From contig NZ_JACJSD010000044.1 of NCBI RefSeq assembly GCF_014697615.1, positions 1 through 63,653 on the forward strand: a stretch of 63,653 nucleotides of DNA. The letters are read 5' to 3'. Below, one piece after another: positions 4,304 through 51,021 of this stretch (positions within the stretch are counted from its first letter, which is position 1; the number at the start of each line of letters is the position of its first letter). The translations under genes and the position numbers were made by a program. The notes below the pieces were generated by a model. The model worked only from the letters and a program-made list of their open reading frames with translations, was not told the origin of the DNA and searched no databases. This DNA is from Nostoc sp. FACHB-280 (lineage in GTDB: Bacteria > Cyanobacteriota > Cyanobacteriia > Cyanobacteriales > Nostocaceae).

Positions 4304-4795
4304 TTATTCTTCCAGCAAACTTCTCAACATCCAAGCAGTTTTTTCATGGACTTGCATCCGTTGAGTTAACAAATCGGCGGTTGGTTCGTCGTTGACTTCA
4401 TCTACTATGGGAAAAATCGATCGCGCAGTTCGCACTACCGCTTCTTGTCCTTCCACCAGTAACTGAATCATATCCTTAGCTTTTGGTACCCCAGGGGTTT
4501 CGGGAATAGAACTGAGTTTGGCATATTCGCTATAAGTTCCAGGTGCAGGATAACCCAAAGCCCTGATGCGTTCAGCAATTAAATCTACGGCTAAAGCTAA
4601 TTCTGTATACTGAGTCTCAAACATCAGGTGTAATGTTTGAAACATTGGCCCAGTAACATTCCAGTGGAAGTTATGGGTTTTGAGATACAGTGTGTAGGTG
4701 TCTGCCAATAGGCGGGACAATCCTTCGGCAATTTTGGTTCTATTTTCTTCGTCGATGCCAATATTTACATTTTTTACTGTTGCTTGAGATGACAT
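4304..4795 (-). CDS. dps: Dps family ferritin-like DNA/iron protection protein
   Basis: This 163-residue protein has the Dps architecture. The inter-subunit ferroxidase ligands are visible: [10 protein letters not shown] (His41/His44) and, about 30 residues on, the [12 protein letters not shown] helix (Asp71, Glu75). In this family twelve subunits form a cage that oxidises Fe2+ with H2O2 and can protect DNA. There is no long Lys-rich N-terminal tail, so DNA binding is uncertain. It lies between sulfiredoxin (98 bp upstream) and an HTH/GrpE-like gene (81 bp downstream), all leftward. The small gaps contain dispersed TTCATACTTC-type repeats, so co-transcription is uncertain. Confidence 0.92.
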
Positions 4796-37482: not shown

Positions 37483-39150
37483 ATGCCAAGATTAGATTAT
37501 TTTGCACCTGGTGTCTACGTTGAAGAAGTAGACCGAGGTAGTCGCCCCATAGAAGGGGTAAGTACGAATATCGCCGGCTTTATCGGTTTTACCGAAGATG
37601 TCAGAGGCGATGCGGAATTGTTTAAACCGATGCTGGTGACATCGTGGAACGAATATTTAGAATACTTTGCTAAACAAGGTTCTGATGGTTACACCGATTT
37701 TGATGCTTATTTACCTTTTGCAGTAAATGGTTGGTTTCTCAATGGCGGTGGACGTTGTTGGGTAGCGAGTATTGGTACGAAACTTCCTGGTTCTCAGCCA
37801 CCACCACCAGAAGAAACCGCCTTAAAAATTCGCACCACTGGGAACCGTCCTGCTTTAAGTTTTGCCCTCAAGCCAGCTGAAGATGATGATGATGGTGCAG
37901 AAGGTAGAATTAACGTTTCTGTAACTGAAAGTGAACCGCGTCCGCCAGAAAGCCCAGAAGCAGAACCACCCGCAAATAGTGGTGAATTTTTCAAAGTCAT
38001 AATTAGCCGCAATGGTGAAATTCTGGAAGAATACGACCACTTATCTATGAACCCACAAATTGATGCGGCTGTGGGTAGTTATGCGGTGACAGCGTTGCAA
38101 GACTCGCAATTTGTCACAGTTGCAGACTTGGAAACACCAGGACAACCCCTGTCTCGTCGTCCTGCTAACGGTAATTACGAAGTCAGTCCGCCGCCAGTAG
38201 TTTCCACCCCTGACCGTTTCCCCAGAGATGTGCAAGGTGTCAGAGACGATCGCACCGGGATGCAAGGTATCTTTGAAATTGATGAAGTTACCATGATTGC
38301 TTTCCCTGACTTGATGCGGGCTTATCAAAACGGCATCTTGGATTTGGATCAAGTCCACGGCATCATGGAAGCGATGGTGAGTCTGTGTGAAAATACTGCC
38401 CCTAACCGGATGGTAGTATTAGACCCGCCCCCATGTAAAGGTGGTGGTGCGGCTGTGCCTCCCACCCAGGTGAAGCCCCAGCATATGGCTCAGTGGTTGA
38501 GTGCATTTAATAGGCGATCGCAATTTGCCGCCCTCTACTATCCTTGGATTAAAGTCCCCAACCCCCGCAACGGTGGCAGACCCATTTTAATTCCTCCCGC
38601 CGGTCACATGCTGGGCGTTTGGTGTCGCACTGATGAAACTCGCGGTGTCTACAAAGCACCCGCCAACGATACACCCAGAGGAGTCATTGGATTAGCCTAC
38701 GAAACCAACCTGCGCGAACAAGAATTACTCAACCCCCTGGGTATTAACTGTATCCGTACTTTCCCCAACCGTGGTATCCGCATTTGGGGCGCTCGCACAT
38801 TGGTAGAACCAGATAACGTCCAGTGGCGTTATATCAGCGTCCGTCGCTTGATGAGCTATATCGAGAAATCCGTAGAACTCGGTACTCAATGGGTAGTCTT
38901 TGAACCCAACGACCAAGATTTATGGGCGCGTGTGACTCGTACCGTCAGTAACTTCCTAGAAAGACTCTGGCGGGAAGGTGCTTTATTTGGCGCTTCGGCG
39001 GCGGAAGCCTTTTATGTCAAATGCGACTCCAGCATCAATACCCACGAAACCATGATGTTGGGGCGGTTGTATATCGAAGTTGGTGTTTGTCCTGTACGTC
39101 CGGCGGAATTTGTCATCTTCCGCTTTAGTCAATGGTCTCCTAACCAATAA
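37483..39150 (+). CDS. contractile tail sheath protein (eCIS/phage type)
   Basis: This 555-residue sheath protein opens with YFAPGVYVEEVDRGSRPIEG, the conserved N-terminal arm that interlocks sheath subunits. The C-terminal core has RGVIGLAYETNLREQEL, NPLGINCIRTFPNRGIRIWGARTL and WRYISVRRLMSYIEKSVE. The final FYVKCDSSINT and EVGVCPVRPAEFVIFRFSQW strands form the sheath handshake. An acidic and Pro-rich insertion (about 128-170) interrupts the middle domain. In PVC/Afp-like systems six subunits per layer contract to drive the inner tube. Tube genes follow directly. Length is in the usual range. Confidence 0.92.
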   Translation: MPRLDYFAPGVYVEEVDRGSRPIEGVSTNIAGFIGFTEDVRGDAELFKPMLVTSWNEYLEYFAKQGSDGYTDFDAYLPFAVNGWFLNGGGRCWVASIGTKLPGSQPPPPEETALKIRTTGNRPALSFALKPAEDDDDGAEGRINVSVTESEPRPPESPEAEPPANSGEFFKVIISRNGEILEEYDHLSMNPQIDAAVGSYAVTALQDSQFVTVADLETPGQPLSRRPANGNYEVSPPPVVSTPDRFPRDVQGVRDDRTGMQGIFEIDEVTMIAFPDLMRAYQNGILDLDQVHGIMEAMVSLCENTAPNRMVVLDPPPCKGGGAAVPPTQVKPQHMAQWLSAFNRRSQFAALYYPWIKVPNPRNGGRPILIPPAGHMLGVWCRTDETRGVYKAPANDTPRGVIGLAYETNLREQELLNPLGINCIRTFPNRGIRIWGARTLVEPDNVQWRYISVRRLMSYIEKSVELGTQWVVFEPNDQDLWARVTRTVSNFLERLWREGALFGASAAEAFYVKCDSSINTHETMMLGRLYIEVGVCPVRPAEFVIFRFSQWSPNQ

Positions 39151-39237
39151 AAGTAGGTGCAGAGGTGTAAGGGAAACCATACTCCCCTACACCCTCACAC
39201 CCTTATACCCTCTATTGCAAACTAAGGAACTACAAAG

Positions 39238-39723
39238 ATGCCTGAATTAAAACCAATTGCTGCTAGTAACTTTTACTTTGAAATTGATGGCATGACCGAT
39301 ATGGCTTTTAGCAAAATTGGCGGTGTCAAATTTGAAGCTAAAGTCAAAGGTCAAGATAAACCTTTAATGTCTACAAAAGGCGGTGTTACTGTCAGACAAA
39401 TTAACTCTGCTGGATTTGAAGGACTATTTACAATTGACGTTTCTACCCTCATGAGTGGAGATAGTGATAGCACCAGCAAAAAAATGTATGAGTGGTTCAA
39501 AAAATGTATGCCCAAAACTGAAAAAGGCGAAGGCAAATGGGCAGACAGTAAAAAAACAGGCTCAATAGTTGCCTACGATACTGATGGTAATGAAGTAATG
39601 CGTTGGGAATTAAAAGAAGCTTGGCCTTCGCAATACAAAATCGGAGATTTAGATGTGAATGGCAACGATTATATTGAAGAAACTTACACCTTAACTTGTG
39701 AAAATATGAATCGCAAAAAATAG
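39238..39723 (+). CDS. contractile injection system tube protein 1 (gp19-like)
   Basis: This 161-residue tail-tube protein follows the T4 gp19/Afp1 pattern: ASNFYFEIDGMTDMAFSKIGG, WFKKCMP, SGSIVAYDTDG-like GSIVAYDTDG, and WELKEAWPSQYKIGDLDV ending in EETYTLTCENMNR. Tube proteins stack as hexamer rings inside the sheath. The gene starts 88 bp after the sheath stop. That gap contains CCTACACCCTCACACC repeats and ends with a CTAAGGAAC ribosome site. It is one of three tube paralogues here. Confidence 0.9.
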   Translation: MPELKPIAASNFYFEIDGMTDMAFSKIGGVKFEAKVKGQDKPLMSTKGGVTVRQINSAGFEGLFTIDVSTLMSGDSDSTSKKMYEWFKKCMPKTEKGEGKWADSKKTGSIVAYDTDGNEVMRWELKEAWPSQYKIGDLDVNGNDYIEETYTLTCENMNRKK

Positions 39724-41308: not shown

Positions 41309-41680
41309 ATGACAAACATTTATACAGAATTTAACTTTACCCTTCCTAGAGGTTTATTAGATGCTGAGGGGAATTTACATCGCCAAGGTGTGATGCGGTT
41401 GGCGACAGCAAAGGATGAAATAATTGTCCACAAAAATCGGGCTGCTCAGGAAAATACAATTTATGCTGCAATTGTTATGCTCTCACAAGTAATTACTCGT
41501 TTGGGCGATTTAACAGAAGTTACTCCGAGTTTACTGGAAAATCTTTTTTCTAAAGATTTGGCATATTTGCGAGAGTTTTACAATCGAATTAATCAGCAAG
41601 GTGATGCAGAAATTCCTGTCCACTGTCCCCAATGTCAGACTAAGTTTCAAGTGGAGTTGGCTTTAGCGGGGGAATCATAG
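41309..41680 (+). CDS. phage tail assembly-like protein, copy 2 with Zn-ribbon-like tail
   Basis: This 123-residue paralogue of the preceding gene has TEFNFTLPRGLLDAEGNLHRQGVMRL, AAIVMLSQVITRLGDLTEV and LREFYNRINQ. It differs by an extra C-terminal HCPQCQTKFQVE segment, half of a zinc-ribbon-like motif (one CxxC pair), which might bind metal as a dimer. The start ATG lies inside a heptameric AATGACA repeat, so the leader has been remodelled. Its stop overlaps the reading frame of a following microgene. Confidence 0.72.
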   Translation: MTNIYTEFNFTLPRGLLDAEGNLHRQGVMRLATAKDEIIVHKNRAAQENTIYAAIVMLSQVITRLGDLTEVTPSLLENLFSKDLAYLREFYNRINQQGDAEIPVHCPQCQTKFQVELALAGES

Positions 41681-41823
41681 GCTACCCCTCAGATTTACTA
41701 CACGAGGAGGTAGCCTGTATTGCGTTTCATTTCCATTGGAGTTTAGCAGATATTCTCACTTTAGAACATTCTGAGCGTCAACGCTGGGTGAATGAAATCG
41801 GTAAAATAGTGCAGCCAGAATAA
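41674..41823 (+). CDS. DUF6760-like injection system microgene without standard start
   Basis: A frame ending TAA at 41821-41823 encodes GYPSDLLHEEVACIAFHFHW, then SLADILTLEHSERQRWVNEI. I recognise this as the small DUF6760-type protein that follows tail assembly genes in cyanobacterial CIS loci. Family members begin with Met just before the GYPSD-like segment, but here that position reads ATC ATA. The frame has no ATG, GTG or TTG after a TAA at 41641-41643. It overlaps the preceding gene in another frame. Either a rare ATC/ATA start is used, translation is coupled, or a point change has inactivated the start. The coding part itself is undamaged. Confidence 0.6.
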   Translation: MIGYPSDLLHEEVACIAFHFHWSLADILTLEHSERQRWVNEIGKIVQPE

Positions 41824-41836
41824 CTGAGAAAGTTTA

Positions 41837-41966
41837 TATCATACAAGCAAATTTTTGGGTACATACTTTAGGAAGATGCCCCAATATTTAACTCAGTCTA
41901 AATTTATTTTGGTGTGTCAAATAACTGCTTTCTACAGAGGTTTAGCCTTGAGCTAAACCTTTTTTA
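41837..41966 (+). ncRNA. putative small RNA unit 1 of a four-unit tandem array
   Basis: The unit has a TATCAT box (41837-41842), a conserved GTACATACTTTAGGAAGATG core starting at 41859, an AAATTTA-containing middle, and a Rho-independent terminator AGGTTTAG/CTAAACCT with a seven-base loop and T-run (to 41966). The same order and spacing recur at 42177, 42430 and 42638. It would give an RNA of roughly 110-120 nt. No open frame is conserved, so a non-coding RNA is the best reading. Confidence 0.5.
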
Positions 41967-42176
41967 TAATTGATATTTTTTAAAAACTAACTGCTACAAA
42001 ATATTAGGTTATTTCAGAATAAATATTACCATAAATATCCGAAGAAGCTAAATTTTTTCTATCCTGAGACAGATAGGTGAAATAAATTATGCTCAAAATT
42101 AATAGAGCAATTATCAATCATTGATAAACATCTCTCTTCCTTGTCTATTATGTCCTCCTTGTCTTCGTAGTTCACA

Positions 42177-42302
42177 TATCATAGTTTCTAATTTTTGTAC
42201 ACAACTAGAAGGAAGATGAACTGCATCTACTAAAGAGATAAATTATCTAGGTATGGTAAACACCTGGTATATATGGGCTTGGTTAATGTCCAAGCCTTTT
42301 TC
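42177..42302 (+). ncRNA. putative small RNA unit 2 of a four-unit tandem array
   Basis: TATCAT lies at 42177-42182, with a core GTACACAACTAGAAGGAAG and ATGAA from 42197. AGATAAATTA comes mid-way, and a terminator GGCTTGG/CCAAGCC (42276-42296) with TTTTT closes it. The unit is 126 nt from the box to the T-run. It shares most with unit 4 (GGTATAYA near the terminator and the same terminator stem). Confidence 0.5.
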
Positions 42303-42429
42303 ATATTTTTGAGACAAATAAATTTCTCTTCAAATTAGTAATTATTAAAATATTTACTGGATTTATATTATGTATTATGTCCGCATTTTATGTGTTATTT
42401 GAATATGGCTTATTTTAGCTATAATCTCA

Positions 42430-42559
42430 TATCAATTTGTCTGTTGTTTAGGTACATCCTCAAGATAGATGAAGTGTCAAGAGGAAAGTAATAAATTAAT
42501 TTAGTACGTTGTTAAGCACAGCAATTTTTAAGGTTTGGCTCTTGACCAAACCTTTTTTG
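42430..42559 (+). ncRNA. putative small RNA unit 3 of a four-unit tandem array
   Basis: TATCAA lies at 42430-42435 and the core GTACATCCTCAAGATAGATG starts at 42452. AATAAATTAATTTAGTA comes mid-way, and the terminator AGGTTTGG/CCAAACCT (42531-42553) ends in TTTTTT. The unit is 130 nt. Its stem differs from units 2 and 4 by changes on both arms that keep pairing (GGTTTGG/CCAAACC versus GGCTTGG/CCAAGCC), which indicates selection on structure. Confidence 0.5.
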
Positions 42560-42637
42560 TGACTTCATTTTTTGAATAAAATTTTATGGTTATTTATAAA
42601 TAGTTTAAGCATAAAAAATAACTGTTGATTTGGGCAA

Positions 42638-42766
42638 TATCAGTTATTTAATCATTTGTATACATCCTTTAGAGAGATGAACTAACGGATGACCTGAGAT
42701 AAATTAAGCTTGGTGTAGTAAATGCTTGGTATACATAAAGGCTTGGTTCACCCAAGCCTTTTTTTG
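42638..42766 (+). ncRNA. putative small RNA unit 4 of a four-unit tandem array
   Basis: TATCAG lies at 42638-42643 and the core GTATACATCCTTTAGAGAG (then ATGAA) starts at 42658. AGATAAATTAAG and GGTATACATA follow, and the terminator AGGCTTGG/CCAAGCCT (42739-42759) ends in seven T. The unit is 129 nt. It is the last unit; about 790 bp of leader then precede the taxis operon. Confidence 0.5.
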
Positions 42767-43553
42767 TACATTTTTTCAGCATCATATTATTACAAAATCT
42801 TATCGTATTGGTTTGGCGATCGCATATAAGTCAAAAGTGTAAAAACTCTCTACAGCTTGTTTGGGATGTCATCTACTCACCCCCAACCTGAATCTCTCTA
42901 TCAGTTACACCGAAAAAATTTGCTTAAAAATATTGTGTCAGTAACTTTGTCTGGGTTTACCAAAAATTGTTGAAATACTTACATTTTGTCATATAGTACT
43001 ACGTGTCAGGCTAAGAGCCTAGCAAGTAAACTGTTGAAGTTTCATTAAGAAAACCAATATTGGGACTTTCCGTGGGAATTATATGGACAATTGCACTAAC
43101 AAAGACTAGAGGTGATTGCATCCAATGAATTTATGTAAATTCCCGGTAATCTTACTTAACTAAACATTACATTATGTCTGATTTGGGCAAAGCTGATTTT
43201 TTTTAAGTGTAACTACTGAGAAAAATCTAGTTAAATTTTGCTAATTTAGCAGTGTTCTTTAAGATTTGCTTATCTAAAAGTTGATGAAAAGCAAGGGGAT
43301 AGTTTTCATGTTTACTGTTTATAAAGTTAACTCTCCTGACGCTGATCAAGTTCAACGGCAGTAATTAATTTAACTTTTCATTACTCATATAAATAAAGAT
43401 GTAAATGCCAAAAGCCATAGCATCAAGTTACGATACCCCAAATTTAAACTTTAGTATTTGTAGTATTCTTGACACAAACACTGAGTTGTCTGGAGAAGAG
43501 TAACTAAACCACGTACGAATTTATATGACGCGTCTTGAATTTAGCTTAAGTAA
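42767..43553. promoter_or_regulatory. long upstream region of the PatA/Che taxis operon
   Basis: This is 787 bp without a confident gene. It contains a possible tiny ORF (43284-43364) with a GGGGA ribosome-like site and one GGCGATCGC site near 42816. The operon promoter should lie here. I could not place a specific sigma-factor motif. Confidence 0.4.
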
Positions 43554-44606
43554 ATGCAAAATCTAACTCCTATGAGTAGTCATCGGTTAATCCAAAAACT
43601 ACATCCATTATCTTTATTAGCACAGCTAACTAGTCGGCGTGCGACGGGTTGCTTACGTGTATTTACGGGTTCAACCTCATGGTCAATTCATCTTGAAGAA
43701 GGTAAACTTACTTATGCTTCTTCATCTGATAAGGTGTTTGAGAGGCTTGATAATCAGTTACGGCGCTTGAGTTTAAATATTCCCGCTCTCAACAGTGCGA
43801 CTCGTGTACAAATGCGACTGATGTTTGAACCAGCCAACGAAAGTCTGTCAATTCCATATCCAGATTACCAAGCTATTTGTTGGTTAGTAGAACAGCGTTA
43901 CATTAGTTCCATGCAAGCAGCTACTTTAGTAGACGAATTAGCTAAAGAGGTGCTGGAATCATTTTTAATTTTAAAAGAAGGAACCTACGAATTTTATCCT
44001 GATAGTTCATGGAATGAACTACCGAAATTCTGCCAGTTAGATTTGCGTTTACTAGTGGAATATTGTCAAAGACAATTACGACATCGTTACCATGTGCAGC
44101 AACCAACCAATGCTGCTAAAGGTTCACCAGTTTTACCAGCAATCAATTCACTATCGCATAACAAGACATTAACAAAAAATAACAATATTGACTCTGGTGA
44201 AAATAGCAATCAGAAACATATCAAGTCACGGGAAAGAAGTAGTTTATATACAGTAGCCTGCATTGATGATAGTCAAACTGTGTTAAATTCGATCAAATTA
44301 TTTTTAGATGAAAATACCTTTTTGGTAGTGACAATTAATGATCCTGTTAAGGCATTAATGCAGATTCTCCGCAGTAAGCCTGACTTGATTTTGTTAGATG
44401 TCGAAATGCCCAACTTAGATGGATATGAACTTTGTTCATTATTACGTAGGCATTCAGCATTTAAAAATATACCTATCATTATGGTGACGGGAAGGACAGG
44501 ATTTATTGATAGAGCGAAAGCTAAAATGGTCAGATCATCGGGATATTTGACTAAGCCTTTTACTCAATCAGAATTACTGAAAATTGTGTTTAAACATATT
44601 AAATAA
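43554..44606 (+). CDS. hmpA: PatA-type response regulator (DUF4388 + receiver)
   Basis: This 350-residue protein is first in the taxis operon. The N-terminal DUF4388/PATAN domain (about 15-190) has LLAQLTSRRATGCLRVFTG and WSIHLEEGKLTYASS. A polar linker leads to a C-terminal receiver with IDDSQTVLNSIK, Asp282 in LILLDVEMPNLDGYELC and Lys in GYLTKPFTQ. Anabaena PatA, N. punctiforme HmpA and Synechocystis PilG have this layout; they act as the CheY-like output of type IV pilus taxis systems. I use the hmp symbol by operon order only. An internal ATG at residue 7 is an alternative start. Confidence 0.75.
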   Translation: MQNLTPMSSHRLIQKLHPLSLLAQLTSRRATGCLRVFTGSTSWSIHLEEGKLTYASSSDKVFERLDNQLRRLSLNIPALNSATRVQMRLMFEPANESLSIPYPDYQAICWLVEQRYISSMQAATLVDELAKEVLESFLILKEGTYEFYPDSSWNELPKFCQLDLRLLVEYCQRQLRHRYHVQQPTNAAKGSPVLPAINSLSHNKTLTKNNNIDSGENSNQKHIKSRERSSLYTVACIDDSQTVLNSIKLFLDENTFLVVTINDPVKALMQILRSKPDLILLDVEMPNLDGYELCSLLRRHSAFKNIPIIMVTGRTGFIDRAKAKMVRSSGYLTKPFTQSELLKIVFKHIK

Positions 44607-44638
44607 TACTGTCTTTCCGACAATAAGGAGAATGAGGA

Positions 44639-45016
44639 GTGAGTTTGACTTTGGTTGGCACAATTTTAATTGTTGAAGATTCGCCCAGCGAACTAGAATT
44701 GATGAGCCATTATCTCAAAGAAAGTGGCTATAACGTGATCAAAGCCAGTGGTGCAAAAGAAGCTTTAGAGCAAGCTATTGCACAAACACCAGATGTAATT
44801 GTAACTGATGTTGTTATGCCAGGAATGAGTGGTTTTGAGTTATGCCGTTCCCTGAAAAAAAATCCAGAAACCCAAAAGTTACCCATAGTTATTTGTAGCT
44901 CAAAAAATCTCGAAATTGATAGATTATGGGCTATGAAACAAGGTGCAGATGTGTATCTGACTAAACCATACACCAGAGAACAGTTATTAAGAGCTATTAA
45001 ATCAGTGGTGCTTTAA
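44639..45016 (+). CDS. hmpB: CheY-like single-domain response regulator
   Basis: This 125-residue receiver has IVEDSPSELELMSHYL, phospho-acceptor Asp57 in VIVTDVVMPGMSGFELC, then CSSK and Lys in DVYLTKPYTREQL. It has no output domain, so it acts by protein contact, as PilH/HmpB do in pilus motility systems. The start is GTG 44639 after AATAAGGAGAATGAGGA, which includes a good ribosome site. It is followed by cheW after only 4 bp. Confidence 0.85.
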   Translation: MSLTLVGTILIVEDSPSELELMSHYLKESGYNVIKASGAKEALEQAIAQTPDVIVTDVVMPGMSGFELCRSLKKNPETQKLPIVICSSKNLEIDRLWAMKQGADVYLTKPYTREQLLRAIKSVVL

Positions 45017-45020
45017 ATCA

Positions 45021-45518
45021 ATGAATCATCCTAACGTCATCCTTGCGGAAAAACCTCTCCAAAATAATCTAGGAGATGGCTATTTAAAGTTTCAGCTAAA
45101 TCAACAAACGGCGGCAATATTAGCAATGAATCACACTCAAGAAGCTGTGATTTTGCCTGTAGAAGCAATAACTCCAATGCCCAATATGCCAGGATGTATT
45201 TTAGGCTTAATGAATTGGCGCAGTCGGATAATTTGGGCAATTGATTTACCCCGAATGCTCAATTTAGAAGCGATAGATACAAGAAGGCAACAGTATAATG
45301 TCATTGTGATTAAGGTAGAATCACTGCTTTTAGGTTTAGTTGTACAAGAAATCAAAGGAACAACTAAAATTTTGGTTGATGAAATTCATTCTCCAATTGG
45401 GCAAGTAGCATCTAGTTTAGTTCCTTATTTGCGTGGATGTGTTGTGCAGCAAGAAGAAATTTTACTGGCATTAGATGCACAAGCAATTGTACAATCTTCT
45501 ATTCTCCGCAGTGATTAA
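45021..45518 (+). CDS. hmpC: CheW-like adaptor protein
   Basis: This 165-residue CheW-domain protein has LPVEAITPMPNMPGCILGLMNWRSRIIWAIDLP and a VVQEIKGTTKILVDEI strand. It couples the MCP to the CheA kinase in signalling arrays. Position between cheY and the MCP gene matches pilGHIJL and hmpABCDE order. The N-terminal 25 residues are extra to the core fold. Confidence 0.85.
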   Translation: MNHPNVILAEKPLQNNLGDGYLKFQLNQQTAAILAMNHTQEAVILPVEAITPMPNMPGCILGLMNWRSRIIWAIDLPRMLNLEAIDTRRQQYNVIVIKVESLLLGLVVQEIKGTTKILVDEIHSPIGQVASSLVPYLRGCVVQQEEILLALDAQAIVQSSILRSD

Positions 45519-45561
45519 GTTATCTGGTAACGGATAGCTTTAAATATTTTTTGATGTACCT

Positions 45562-47874
45562 ATGCAGGAGAAGTTCAGAATGTTTAATAAGACTGACACG
45601 GCTAAGAGTGGTGATAGAAAAAATCGTGCTTCGTTAATTGCATCTACCAAGATTTCTGCGAATAAAATACCCCTGAAGGCTAGTTCTCAGATAGCGAATT
45701 CTGATGGAGAAACACAGCCAAATTTAGGTGGACAGTTAAAAAGGCTGAGTTTAGAAACAAAAGCAACAATTTTAGCGATCGCCATCAGTACTATACCAGC
45801 CTTATTCATTGGTGCGATCGCCTACCATTTAACTAGTAAATCCTTAACCAAGCAAATTACCCAATCTCAAACGACAGAAGCTGTTGATTTAACTGAAAAA
45901 ATTAACCGCTTTATGTCTGACAGGTATGGAGATATTCAAATACTGGCTAACTCGCCTTTATTTGCCAATGGCAACCTCACCAGCAAGACTAATAATCAAG
46001 AAAAGCAAGCATTACTTGATAAAATCCTCACCAATTATCAAAATTATAATAGTATTGCTGTCTTTGATACCGAAGGTAATGTCATTGTTCAATCTTCAGG
46101 CGAACCAATAGATAACCAAAAAGACAACAGTTATTTTCAGGCGACGCTGCTAAAAGATACGGCTGTCATTATGCAGCCAGAAAAATCTACTGATATTTAT
46201 CTTGCTGCCCCAATTAAAAATAGCATCACAGGCAAAACTTTAGGCATAGTGAGAACCAGTCTGCCCACCAAAGCTTTAGCCGAAACCATCAAAAACTATA
46301 CTGTTAATGGTTATCAATATGTTTTAGTAGATAATTCTGGCAAAGTTTTCTTAAGTTCACGCCCAGAATTATTAGGCAAAGAAGCAAAAGCTGAGTATCC
46401 TGGTTTAGCCAAAATTCTCGCCACCAATAATCTTGCTACACTCACAACCGTTCCCCGCAACCATCCTAAACGGCAATTAATTAGTTACGTCCCAGCACCC
46501 AAAATTGCAGGTTTATCTGATTTAAATTGGCAAGTATTACTCACCAATGATGCGGCAATTTTATATGGTACACAACAGCAATTGTTGTGGATTGTCACGA
46601 TTGGTACAGCCTTGATTGGACTGATTGTAGCAGCGATCGCAGCTTGGTTGGCCAAACGTACCACACAGCCCATCATCAATGCCACAGCCGCCGTCGCTAA
46701 ACTCGGACAAGGTGAACTCAACACCCGTCTCGCCTCCGAAAGAGAAGATGAGTTAGGCGTATTAAGTGCCAATATTGATCACATGGCTGCCAAATTGCAG
46801 GTGTTAGTCAACGAACAAACCGAAATTGACCACACCAAAACCCTAATTCAAGCCACATCCCCAGAAGAACGCCCCACACAAGAAGCCTTACAACTGCAAC
46901 TCTTAGAACTACTCAACGATATAGAAGGTGCAGCTAGAGGTGACTTAACAGTCCGCGCTGATGTTACAGATGGCGAAATTGGGACTGTAGCCGACTTTTT
47001 CAACTCTATTGTCGAGAGTCTGCGAGATATCGTCACCCAAGTTAAACAAGCCGCCACCCAAGTCAACACCGCCATTGGTTCCAACGAAACAGCTATTCGC
47101 AAACTTGCAGACGAAGCATTGGTACAAGCCGAGGAAATTAACCGCGCCTTAGATGCTGTGGATAATATGACTCATTCTATGCAAGCGGTGGCTAATAGTG
47201 CCGAACAAGCCGCTACCGTGGCGAATAACGCCGCCCAAAATGCTTCTAAGAGTGAAGAAGCGATGTATTTAACAGTGCAGAATATTCTGTCTCTGCGGGA
47301 AACTGTCGGCGAAACCGCCCAGAAAGTCAAACGTTTAGGCGAGTCTTCCCAACAAATTTCTCGCGTCGTTTCTTTAATTAATCAAATTGCGATGCAAACC
47401 AACTTACTCGCCATCAACGCAGGTATCGAAGCCGCCCGTGCTGGTGAAGAAGGACAAGGTTTTGCTGTGGTAGCCGAAGAAGTAGGTGAGTTAGCCGCCC
47501 GTAGCGCCGCAGCCACCCAAGAAATTGAACAAATTGTCGAGAACATTCAACGGGAAACTAGCGCCGTTGTGCAGGCGATAGAAATTGGTACTACCCAAGT
47601 TGGTGAAGGTGCGCGGGTAGTGGAAGAAGCCAAACAAAATCTCGGTCAGATTTTTGATGTTTCTCGTCAAATTGATTCTTTAGTACAGTCTATTTCTTCT
47701 GCAACCGCATCTCAAGTGCAAACATCGCAAACGGTGAGCTTGTTAATGAAAGAAATCGCTGCCATTTCTCAGCGTACCAGAGATTCTTCTAGCTCTGTTT
47801 GCCAATCTCTCAAACAAACTGTTGAGATTTCTCATAAGTTGCAAGAGACTGTTGAGACTTTTAAAGTGAATTGA
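45562..47874 (+). CDS. hmpD: methyl-accepting chemotaxis protein
   Basis: This 770-residue receptor has a cytoplasmic N-terminal extension (1-65), TM1 (about 68-92: [20 protein letters not shown]) and a periplasmic dCache-like sensor (about 95-340). TM2 is at about 345-370 ([20 protein letters not shown]), followed by HAMP (370-425) and a second HAMP-like segment (about 450-510). The signalling hairpin has tip [20 protein letters not shown]. HmpD/PilJ receptors of pilus-taxis systems have this build. No GAF photosensor is present, unlike PixJ/PtxD, so the signal is probably chemical or mechanical. Confidence 0.9.
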
Positions 47875-47955
47875 TTTTGTCATTTGTCATTTGTTCTTTG
47901 TTTACGAATGACAAATGACAAGTGACTAATGACCAATAAATAATTATTAAAAACA

Positions 47956-50900
47956 ATGTCACAAGATAAAGAATTAGAAATCCAGATGCAATTTCTGGAA
48001 GAAGCGACAGATTACCTCAATACCTTGGAGGGAGTCTTGCTGGAAATTGATACCAGCCATCGCATAGATTTAGAAAAAATTAATGGCGCACTCCGGGCTG
48101 CCCACTCCATTAAAGGTGGTGCAGCAATGATGGGATTTCGGGTGTTAAGTGATTTAGCACACCGTTTAGAAGATGCTTTTAAAGTTTTAAAAACCCACAA
48201 AACTTCTCTAGAAATTGACCAACAATTGCAAAGTTTATTGCTTTCGGCAATTGATTGGATGCGGCAAATTGTCGACTTACTCTCAACTCAAAGTGCTATA
48301 GAAGAAGAATGGTTAACAAGTTTTTGTTATCCAATTTTTGATGAACTACATCAACGTTTGGGTGATCCTACTCCCGAAGATGCGACAACAATGTTGTCCC
48401 CAGAAGATGGGCAGAATATTATTCCTTTATTATTTGAAACCGAAGTCGAAGGTTGTTTGCAACGTTTAGAATCTGTTTTGGCTGATAGTCAACAACCTTG
48501 TTTGCAAGAAGAAGTGGCTATTATGGCCGCTGAATTAGGCGGTTTAGGAGAAATGCTGCAATTGTCAGCCTTTAGCCAATTGTGTGATTCTATTAAACAA
48601 ACTATCGAATCTGCGGCACCAGAACGCATCTCAGGCATTGCTCAAATTGCATTGCAAACATGGCGGCGATCGCAAGCTTTAGTTTTAACCAATCAACTCG
48701 ACAGTCTACCTAGAGCCATTGAGTTGAGTGAAATACCAACTACTTCCACAACTTATAATCAAACCGCGCCACTGTCAACCGCAGATGCGATCGCTCAATT
48801 CTTGGCTACAGATAACGGCATTTACCCAGAAATAGAATTTGTCGAAACACCCATAATTCACCCAGAACCTGAAATAGTCACCAGTAATTTGATACCTTTA
48901 GAGGCAGAGATTTCTGCTGTCAATCTGCCGGAAATCAACAATCTTATTGCTGAACATAAAAATGAACCAATTACTCCTAATAAAGACCGCGAACATGCTG
49001 AAAATACAGTCCGAGTTCCTAGCAGACAACTAGAACAAATTAATGATTTATTTAGTGAACTAATTGTGCAGAGAAATGGTCTGCATTCGCAACTTGAAAA
49101 ATTACGTAACCTCTCACGCAATCTCGGACAGCGAGTGCAGAATCTGGATCGGGAAAATCAAGAATTACGCATAGCATATAACCGCGTGCTATCAGCTAGT
49201 ATCCGGCAAAATAACGGTTCAGAAACAGATACTCAGCAACGCCAGTCCGCTCAAGTCGGGGAACCCGCCCACGCGGCTGGCTCCTCAGCAATCAGCGAGA
49301 AGTTGCGTGCGGGGGTTCCCCCCGTTGAGCAAACTTCGGTGACTCAGCAATTATCCACTACTCATAACTCTCTCCAAGAAATTCATTTGCGATCGCAAGA
49401 TATCGCCGAAACAATTGTTCAAGTGCAAGAAGTCTCCACCGACATTCAATTAAGTGTCGATGATGCTGACCAAATTGCTCGCAAATTAAACAAAACATCC
49501 AAGCAATTACAAACCAAACTCAATCAAGTGCGGATGCGGCCAATCTCCGAGTTAGTTGAGCGGTTTCCCAGAGCCATCCGCGACTTAAATGTCGAGTATG
49601 GCAAGAATGTCCAGCTAAAAATTGAAGGTGGCAATACTTTAATTGAACGCAGCATTTTAGAAGCATTAAATGACCCCTTAATGCACTTATTAAGAAATGC
49701 TTTTGATCATGGCATTGAAGAACCAGCCACCCGCCGCAACTTAGGTAAACCAGAACAAGGATTAATCGAAATTCACGCCATTCATCGCAGCAATCGGACT
49801 ATTATTAGTATGCGCGATGATGGACGCGGAATCTCTTTAGAAAAAATCCGTTCCCGTGCCTTAACAATGGGGTTAGATAGTTCACTATTAGAAAGTGCTA
49901 GTGATGATGAACTACTATCGCTAATCTTTGAACCAGGGTTTAGTACCTCCGAAAAAGTCACCGCCTTATCTGGCCGTGGTGTAGGGATGGATGTGGTACG
50001 CAACAACCTGAAACTAGTGCGTGGCGATATTACAGTTGATACTGAACCCGGCGTTGGTACGACTTTCACCTTATCAGTACCGTTTACCTTATCTGTAGCA
50101 AGAGTGCTGTTAGTCGAAACGGGTAAAATATTGCTGGCATTTCCCACCGATGTGGTATCCGAAATATTTTTACTCCAAAGCGATCGCATCATCTCAATGG
50201 GAGGTAGCGAAGTCCTCAACTGGCAAGGTACAATGCTGCCATTGATTCGCCTAGGACAATATCTGCAATTTAATTGTCCCCGCTACGACAGTCCTGAACT
50301 GGAAACTCCCGCCGCTATTAACGCCAGCAGTGTCTTAATCGTTAAAGGTAACAATCAAACCGTCGCCATTCAAGTAGACCGTTGTTGGGGTGAACAAGAA
50401 GTTGCTATCCGTCAAGTTGAAGGAAATATACCTTTACCAGAAGGCTTTAGTAACTGCACAATTCTTGGTGATGGCCGAGTCGTGGCATTAGTCAGTGCGA
50501 ATGAATTACTCTATTGGATTGCTACCAATCAAAATACCCCGAAAAACAATCAATTACCCGCTGTCAGATTAAAAACACCATTCCTGTTCGTTGACAGTGA
50601 AAAACTCGCAGCCTTACCAGCCAAACCCAAAGGCAAGATTTTAATCATTGATGACTCCATTAATGTCCGCCGTTTCTTAGCACTGACTCTAGAAAAAGGT
50701 GGCTATCAAGTAGAACAAGCAAAAGATGGTCAAGACGCTTTAGAAAAACTCGAAACAGGTTTGCAAATTGCCGCCGTCATTTGTGATATTGAAATGCCAC
50801 GCCTTGACGGGTATGGATTTTTAGGCAAAGTCAAAAACAATGGTGATTTTAAAAATATCCCCGTTGCTATGCTGACTTCCCGCAGTAGCGATAAACATAA

Positions 50901-51021
50901 ACAACTAGCAATGCAGCTAGGTGCTAGAGCCTATTTTTCTAAACCTTACAACGAACAAGAACTACTCCGTACCCTAGAACAACTCATTGGTAATGTAGCA
51001 GAAAGCGCAGCTTCTAATTAA
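47956..51021 (+). CDS. hmpE: CheA-type hybrid histidine kinase
   Basis: This 1021-residue kinase has an Hpt domain with phospho-His50 in AAHSIKGGAAMMG and a degenerate second Hpt-like region (about 150-250). A dimerisation region follows (about 350-560; EHAENTVRVPSRQLEQINDL). The kinase domain has DPLMHLLRNAFDHGIE, MRDDGRGIS and LSGRGVGMDVVRNN. A CheW-like domain (about 715-860) and a C-terminal receiver with Asp in VICDIEMPRLDGYG complete it. Residues about 429-458 come from a palindromic repeat inserted in frame. It is the kinase of the PatA/CheY/CheW/MCP operon. Confidence 0.92.
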   Translation: MSQDKELEIQMQFLEEATDYLNTLEGVLLEIDTSHRIDLEKINGALRAAHSIKGGAAMMGFRVLSDLAHRLEDAFKVLKTHKTSLEIDQQLQSLLLSAIDWMRQIVDLLSTQSAIEEEWLTSFCYPIFDELHQRLGDPTPEDATTMLSPEDGQNIIPLLFETEVEGCLQRLESVLADSQQPCLQEEVAIMAAELGGLGEMLQLSAFSQLCDSIKQTIESAAPERISGIAQIALQTWRRSQALVLTNQLDSLPRAIELSEIPTTSTTYNQTAPLSTADAIAQFLATDNGIYPEIEFVETPIIHPEPEIVTSNLIPLEAEISAVNLPEINNLIAEHKNEPITPNKDREHAENTVRVPSRQLEQINDLFSELIVQRNGLHSQLEKLRNLSRNLGQRVQNLDRENQELRIAYNRVLSASIRQNNGSETDTQQRQSAQVGEPAHAAGSSAISEKLRAGVPPVEQTSVTQQLSTTHNSLQEIHLRSQDIAETIVQVQEVSTDIQLSVDDADQIARKLNKTSKQLQTKLNQVRMRPISELVERFPRAIRDLNVEYGKNVQLKIEGGNTLIERSILEALNDPLMHLLRNAFDHGIEEPATRRNLGKPEQGLIEIHAIHRSNRTIISMRDDGRGISLEKIRSRALTMGLDSSLLESASDDELLSLIFEPGFSTSEKVTALSGRGVGMDVVRNNLKLVRGDITVDTEPGVGTTFTLSVPFTLSVARVLLVETGKILLAFPTDVVSEIFLLQSDRIISMGGSEVLNWQGTMLPLIRLGQYLQFNCPRYDSPELETPAAINASSVLIVKGNNQTVAIQVDRCWGEQEVAIRQVEGNIPLPEGFSNCTILGDGRVVALVSANELLYWIATNQNTPKNNQLPAVRLKTPFLFVDSEKLAALPAKPKGKILIIDDSINVRRFLALTLEKGGYQVEQAKDGQDALEKLETGLQIAAVICDIEMPRLDGYGFLGKVKNNGDFKNIPVAMLTSRSSDKHKQLAMQLGARAYFSKPYNEQELLRTLEQLIGNVAESAASN
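49243..49336 (+). repeat. palindromic dispersed element inside cheA
   Basis: This is a GC-rich inverted repeat. The left arm (49250-49274) carries GGGGAACCC and ends CACGC. The right arm (49305-49328) starts GCGTGC and contains GGTTCCCCCC. It resembles Nostocales extragenic palindromes normally found between genes. Here it adds about 30 residues without a frame change. Confidence 0.7.

Follow-up and report, generated by a model that had tools for sequence, protein, structure and literature searches.

A tandem array of four predicted small RNA genes in Nostoc sp. FACHB-280 belongs to a multigene family of Nostocaceae related to RF02596

Results and discussion

Four units of one layout between tail-type and chemotaxis genes

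The window analysed here is a stretch of 63,653 nucleotides from Nostoc sp. FACHB-280 (contig NZ_JACJSD010000044.1). It contains a contractile tail-type cluster with phage tail-sheath and T4 gp19-like tube domain genes (37483-39723) and, at 43554-51021, a DUF4388-response regulator, a CheY-like open reading frame (assigned by eye), CheW, dCache MCP and CheA-type set. These flank an array of four tandem units on the plus strand, whose TATCAN boxes start at 41837, 42177, 42430 and 42638 and are therefore spaced 340, 253 and 208 bp apart, as a sequence-only reading of this DNA had stated. A short open frame of 47 residues (GYPSDLLHEEVACIAFHFHWSLADILTLEHSERQRWVNEIGKIVQPE, 41680-41824) fills the gap between the last tail-type gene and unit 1.

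The sequence-only reading described each unit as a TATCAN box, a core, an AAATTA-rich middle and a terminator with a T-run, and interpreted the four as a multi-copy family of ~115-nt sRNAs. The near-constant length from box to T-run holds, but our recount gives 129, 125, 129 and 128 nt, each 1 nt below the lengths given before (130, 126, 130 and 129 nt). The core is likewise found in all four units, but the letters quoted for it (GTACATCCT) are exact in unit 3 only; units 1, 2 and 4 carry GTACATACT, GTACACAAC and ATACATCCT, respectively, and the AGATGAA part is replaced by AGATGCC in unit 1. The TAAATT middle and the terminator with its T-run are present in all four units, the stem following the pattern GG(C/T)TT(G/A)G...C(C/T)AA(G/A)CC. 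The features are listed below under the assignment developed in the following sections; bit scores refer to the Rfam family RF02596.

41837..41878, plus strand: unit 1 upstream element, from the TATCAT box (41837-41842) to the TTTG..ACAT..AG..AGATG core; putative regulator site, predicted to be untranscribed, with fixed spacing in most of 134 units
41876..41904, plus strand: unit 1 promoter; putative -35 ATGCCC (41876-41881), 17-bp spacer, -10 TAAATT (41899-41904)
41911..41965, plus strand: unit 1 predicted sRNA, seed class A (GGTGTGTC...); terminator 41939-41965; 30.3 bits, below cut-off
42177..42218, plus strand: unit 2 upstream element
42216..42244, plus strand: unit 2 promoter; putative -35 ATGAAC (42216-42221), 17-bp spacer, -10 TAAATT (42239-42244)
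42250..42301, plus strand: unit 2 predicted sRNA, seed class B; terminator 42276-42301; 17.2 bits, below cut-off
42430..42471, plus strand: unit 3 upstream element
42469..42497, plus strand: unit 3 promoter; putative -35 ATGAAG (42469-42474), 17-bp spacer, -10 TAAATT (42492-42497)
42503..42558, plus strand: unit 3 predicted sRNA, seed class C (AGTACGTTGTTAAGCACAGCAAT); terminator 42532-42558; 26.9 bits, below cut-off
42638..42679, plus strand: unit 4 upstream element
42677..42705, plus strand: unit 4 promoter; putative -35 ATGAAC (42677-42682), 17-bp spacer, -10 TAAATT (42700-42705)
42712..42765, plus strand: unit 4 predicted sRNA, seed class D (GGTGTAGTAAATGCTTGGTATA); terminator 42740-42765; 21.7 bits, below cut-off

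The four units are real and chance is excluded as their origin. A model built from 42 units of other genomes (R3), from which the window and its near relatives were left out as a guard against circularity, matches all four with E-values, rough as these are, of 2.1e-26 to 9.2e-21; the only other matches in the window are two weak ones on the minus strand that lie over the terminators (E 0.003 and 0.015). A terminator scan of 41600-43560 finds exactly four sites, those of the four units, against a mean of 0.9 in shuffled sequence. The compensatory changes that had been noticed in the terminator stem are borne out by 94 aligned units, in which 99.2% of the cells are paired, both sides have changed in five of the eight pairs, and the observed covariation is reached by none of 500 shuffles. 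The layout is kept well beyond the window: among 134 units from 45 loci, which were chosen among model matches and so over-represent high-scoring units, the length from box to T-run is 121-132 nt (127-129 nt in 83 of them) and TA.CA stands at its fixed place, 38 nt before GATG, in 97.

Distribution of the family

The genome of Nostoc sp. FACHB-280 contains two further copies, found with a model of the four units: one at C37:214004-214157 (E 3.4e-14) and one at C13:174544-174654 (E 5.2e-7). With a later model (R2) all six members of the genome reach an E-value of 6.6e-11 or better. The C13 type also occurs in three near relatives with an identical seed; the copy of the window genome (L164:4547-4686) has AAGTTT in place of TATCA at the fixed position, and the terminator loop is inverted between relatives (L164 versus L244).

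Matches were found in 35 of 60 Nostocaceae genomes with model R1 and in 137 of 217 with R2, leaving 80 of the 217 without a match at E 0.001, and in 26 of the 34 genomes behind the named loci, a hand-picked set drawn from 35 of 80 loci. An order-wide sample of 340 genomes yielded 41 with a match, of which 39, the window genome among them, are Nostocaceae; in each of the remaining two there is a single weak match (E 2e-4 and 8e-4). The large searches used stricter filters, and some weak matches were lost in them. The multigene family is thus a family of the Nostocaceae, without a detected match in a good part of that group. The earlier proposal of a multi-copy sRNA family was right in kind, and the family reaches far beyond the window.

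A lone copy is a member of RF02596, very probably an sRNA with a mapped start

Of particular importance is the C37 copy, which scores 81.2 bits against the Rfam family RF02596 (cyano_het_sRNA) and, at a gathering cut-off of 35.7 bits, is a full member of it. Window units 1-4 score 30.3, 17.2, 26.9 and 21.7 bits, all below the cut-off, and 10 of 14 control genomes likewise give sub-threshold matches; outside the window genome, class C units of three genomes and one class F unit pass the cut-off among 11 loci scanned. The seed of RF02596 (GGGAUGUUGUUAUGCACUGGAUUU), identical at the 5' end of all 17 RF02596 loci, is not present in window units 1-4, which carry seed classes A-D. The terminator hairpin of the RF02596 type, with its GG(C/T)TT(G/A)G stem directly after the seed, is present in the window units.

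The identity of RF02596 can be traced through a neighbouring gene. At locus L220, NsiR8 and RF02596 are encoded on one strand with starts at 4633 and 4952, a distance of 319 nt, and in Nostoc sp. PCC 7120 the available text of PMC4734099 places NsiR8 at 4547556r (171 nt) and a second sRNA at 4547237r (51 nt), again 319 nt apart. Given this equal offset, RF02596 is very probably sRNA 4547237r, and its nucleotide 1 is very probably the mapped start of that RNA. According to the same passages, 4547237r is an RNA of ~51 nt verified by Northern blot and primer extension, which rises with culture density and after long nitrogen lack, and which is treated there as a single sRNA (PMC4734099). A literature search under the Rfam name and the accession RF02596 found no paper, and the array is not described in the consulted passages of PMC8386757, PMC10287535, PMC9045159, PMC3610870 and PMC6495340; some of the RNAs may be listed in Table S3 of PMC4734099. 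In 11 of 14 loci (L220:4633-5008 and ten more), and in one of three in a second set, RF02596 is preceded by NsiR8 on the same strand, at a varying distance. In PCC 7120, NsiR8 is heterocyst-specific and HetR-dependent.

Promoter anatomy

If nucleotide 1 of RF02596 is taken as +1, TAAATT falls at the -10 and the invariant ATG at the -35 place, so that the core and the AAATTA-rich middle would become an upstream element, a putative -35 and a -10. Relative to this position the -10 is TAAATT or a near form in the 17 RF02596 loci. In counts that used an earlier five-class labelling and 119 of the 134 units, GATG lies 24 or 25 nt from the -10 (a spacer of 17 or 18) in 111 of 119, the -10 is exactly TAAATT in 98 of 113, and the putative -35 consists of ATG plus variable bases, ATGAAC being the commonest form (35 of 113). 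TATCA(G) would stand ~73-74 nt before the start, and TTTGnAnACATCCTnTAGGA would extend from about -57 to -36. The window units, with starts expected near 41911, 42250, 42503 and 42712, would yield RNAs of 47-56 nt. By analogy with the mapped start of RF02596, then, the RNAs of the window are very probably ~50 nt and not ~115 nt in length, and the core, which the sequence-only reading took for the transcribed and pairing region, would be promoter DNA running into the -35 place. That reading was unable to match the core to a known tandem sRNA array, a difficulty that is resolved if the core is promoter DNA; the part predicted to be transcribed is, by the Rfam search, a relative of RF02596.

A scan with the sigma-70 consensus did not pick these promoters, which would depend on an activator or belong to a different type. 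A search for operator symmetry brought out neither a dyad nor a direct repeat. The operator pattern TATCAG...TTTGnACACATCCTnTAGGA, allowed up to 3 mismatches in the window genome, recovers the sRNA promoters in five cases out of six, along with five sites elsewhere that each have 3 mismatches; the reversed control gives four matches, and no other gene rises above chance level at this stringency.

Known regulatory motifs were also sought in the promoter stretches. The DIF motif, TCCGGA, occurs in 0 of 134 (1 in the reversed control) and is absent from 41700-42800. NtcA-activated promoters carry GTAN8TAC, which occurs in 4 of 134 against 8 in the reversed control. The looser form TGTN9-10ACA is found in 12 of 134 against 3, which may just reflect the conserved ACA of the core. 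In two loci of the same genus (L163 and L165), and also in L170, GTAN8TAC lies 13 nt before the TATCAG of a class E unit, the family as a whole not exceeding the reversed control. The SigJ J-box, as given in the available passages of PMC6495340, was discarded with 0 of 134 in a count made without a control.

Seed classes and their order

The units can be classified into seven seed classes, A-G. Window units 1-4 are A, B, C and D, whereas the copy on C37 belongs to E and that on C13 is F-like. For classes A-E, the only ones for which within-class values were taken, identity between loci is 0.86-1.00 in the seed (the 5' 22 nt) and 0.92-0.98 in the -10, and falls to 0.57-0.79 in the upstream element, 0.41-0.54 in the spacer and 0.33-0.40 in the upstream flank. 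Between classes the -10 is 0.95 identical and the seed 0.31, at fixed offset and without gaps. This comparison uses the 129 units that remain when five of the 134 fall below a seed-match filter of 0.75, less those that lack TAA or TAC at the -10 place. Exact seeds are found in 25 of 26 class C, 17 of 19 class D, 11 of 12 class E, 12 of 23 class A, 20 of 41 class B and 5 of 9 class G units, and in 3 of 4 class F units, for which a 9-nt test string was used. Exact patterns of seeds C, B and E gave 0 matches each in a viral collection, and the idea of phage-borne copies was dropped on this ground.

When gaps are allowed, none of 300 shuffles aligns as well as the seed pairs A-D, B-D, C-E, C-F and E-F, and only 2-3 of 300 do so for A-B, B-E and D-E. 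The class G seed matches no other class (76-232 of 300 shuffles are as good), although its promoter is the one common to the other classes. By these alignments, A-F are diverged paralogues and G is separate. The G seed, ATAGATTCTACTTCTA or near forms of it, is that of the second-position units of L146, L148, L150, L151, L152, L159 and L182 and, weakly, of L144.

The promoter parts cluster in the same way as the seeds: a unit shares its seed class with its nearest neighbour in another locus in 113 of 129 cases (24.9 expected), and in 90 of 104 (19.5 expected) once the group of the window is removed, related genomes adding to the effect. This clustering makes the classes look old and not homogenised.

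All 27 loci that have at least two units on one strand follow the order A-G-B-C-D-F, apart from absent members or a second B, two weak units (one b, one g) being placed by best match only. These 27 arrays are not independent, since six of them form the group of the window (the window, L024, L026, L029, L032 and L143) and all follow the same tail-type genes. Several others adjoin an arginase-family gene or an ETR1-type kinase, and the remaining arrays lie elsewhere. L178 has two class B units of opposite orientation and is outside the 27. A functional link to the injection-system or taxis genes beside the window array was given up because arrays elsewhere have different neighbours.

Proposed function and alternative readings

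The units are probably co-regulated genes for trans-acting sRNAs with separate targets, each unit being one complete gene. Each would comprise an upstream element (TATCAG, 11 nt, TTTGnAnACATCCTnTAGGA) from about -74 to -36, a putative -35, a 17-18 bp spacer and the TAAATT -10, with the start about 5-7 nt after the -10, followed by a 5' seed of ~22-27 nt and the terminator hairpin. Since the promoter is common to all units, one regulator or condition should switch them on together; the mRNAs paired with should differ from class to class, given that the strongly conserved seed is a different one in each. The A-F seeds are related once gaps are allowed, so their divergence does not by itself prove separate targets. 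Near-full complements of seeds E and C (up to 3 mismatches) occur in the window genome only in the sRNA genes themselves, which suggests that pairing, if any, would be shorter. When 404 gene starts in the vicinity of the retrieved loci were screened by duplex energy, the top scores fell on tail-type genes from six closely related strains (G, D, A and B versus clusters c6, c3, c2 and c3, respectively); as these are near-identical sequences scored without a shuffled control, we draw no inference from them.

The foremost alternative is that the seeds mainly bind a protein or one common target, the array serving as a titration decoy or as a means of dosage. A multi-copy array with strongly conserved seeds would be expected in that case, and the gapped kinship of the A-F seeds would fit it. 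A decoy for one partner should, however, keep one motif, whereas the seed stays specific to each class from locus to locus (0.86-1.00 within classes) and the class G seed resembles no other; we regard this alternative as unlikely.

Less probable still are sRNAs of ~115 nt that start just after the TATCAN box and use the core GTACATCCT for pairing. TATCA does resemble a -10 box at a fixed distance from the core, and the constant unit length would be explained, but the paralogue very probably starts ~74 nt further downstream than TATCA, after TAAATT (available text of PMC4734099), no conserved -35-like block precedes TATCA, and the stretch from the core to TAAATT varies in its letters and keeps its length, as a promoter spacer does. 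For classes D and E, pairing of the 5' part with its own 3' part is somewhat better than with the best swap (by 1.0 and 1.7 kcal/mol), and a 5'-3' helix is part of the consensus fold of class E, but own pairing is no better than swapped pairing in A, B and C. A conserved CATC/GATG hairpin or a 5'-3' pairing inside the unit was rejected as a general feature because A, B and C show no such preference for the own partner. All that the consensus folds of the five classes have in common is the terminator.

It is very improbable that the upstream stretch is a cluster of operator sites with the short RNAs as by-products: the upstream element is conserved in all classes, but the predicted transcribed seed is among the best-conserved parts (0.86-1.00 within classes) and the terminators covary. 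A small peptide read from the invariant ATG was also rejected, as the number of codons to the stop varies within every class, although the stop follows 2 codons in 14 of 19 class D units and 11 codons in 14 of 26 class C units. Decay from a transposon or a single protein-coding repeat, an origin that the sequence-only reading had itself raised, would suit tandem units whose positions differ between genomes, but is hardly credible given the lack of a conserved frame, the ordered and class-specific conservation with freely varying spacers, and the finding that no gene cluster flanks the arrays in all loci examined.

Starting again from co-regulated trans-acting sRNA genes, a wider interpretation can be offered tentatively, as possible rather than probable. 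The family may form an sRNA-only regulon in the Nostocaceae, in which a single regulator acts through the operator TATCAG...TTTGnACACATCCTnTAGGA on a cassette of fixed order, A-G-B-C-D-F, with diverged and conserved seeds. One input would then be turned into many separate post-transcriptional outputs, and the order would have been kept while the cassette moved around the genomes.

Relation to known sRNA systems

Until now, RF02596, very probably 4547237r, was published as a lone and unexplained sRNA. Our analysis places it among at least seven seed classes with a common promoter and thereby extends a known Rfam family to a multigene, ordered array with diverged seeds. The window units have in common with RF02596 the promoter anatomy, the predicted size of ~50 nt and the succession of 5' seed and GG(C/T)TTGG terminator; they differ from it in scoring 17-30 bits against a cut-off of 35.7, in their seeds (A-D) and in their tandem arrangement. 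The relationship predicts that the units would be induced together at high density or after long nitrogen lack and that each seed would have separate targets. That 27 of 27 arrays have the same order even though their neighbours change would be unusual among tandem sRNA genes, and raises the question of what holds it.

The Qrr RNAs of Vibrio are co-regulated paralogous sibling sRNAs that share a core pairing region. The window units resemble them as a set of several predicted co-regulated paralogous sRNAs, but the likely pairing region is the part in which they differ most, whereas in Qrr it is the common core.

The sequence-only reading had also likened the array to NsiR1, a comparison that holds only for the layout, tandem genes with one promoter per copy. 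As described in the available passages of PMC9045159, NsiR1 of Nostocales consists of tandem sRNA genes of ~60 nt, each with its own promoter, in 12 copies of which the seven central ones are identical, located before hetF and provided with a DIF motif. The window units, in contrast, have seeds that differ from unit to unit and no TCCGGA; identity with NsiR1 was ruled out, since the array is not upstream of hetF and its neighbours are tail-sheath/tube-type genes and the DUF4388-CheW-MCP-CheA set. NsiR3, a single-copy sRNA of heterocystous cyanobacteria according to the passages available from PMC3610870, was considered as the lone copy and discarded, because the sequence at its published place in Nodularia (2888944-2888814, minus strand) looks unrelated on inspection and the family members are found at other places. 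The published Yfr2 place in the same Nodularia genome does contain a Yfr2-like sequence, as judged by eye.
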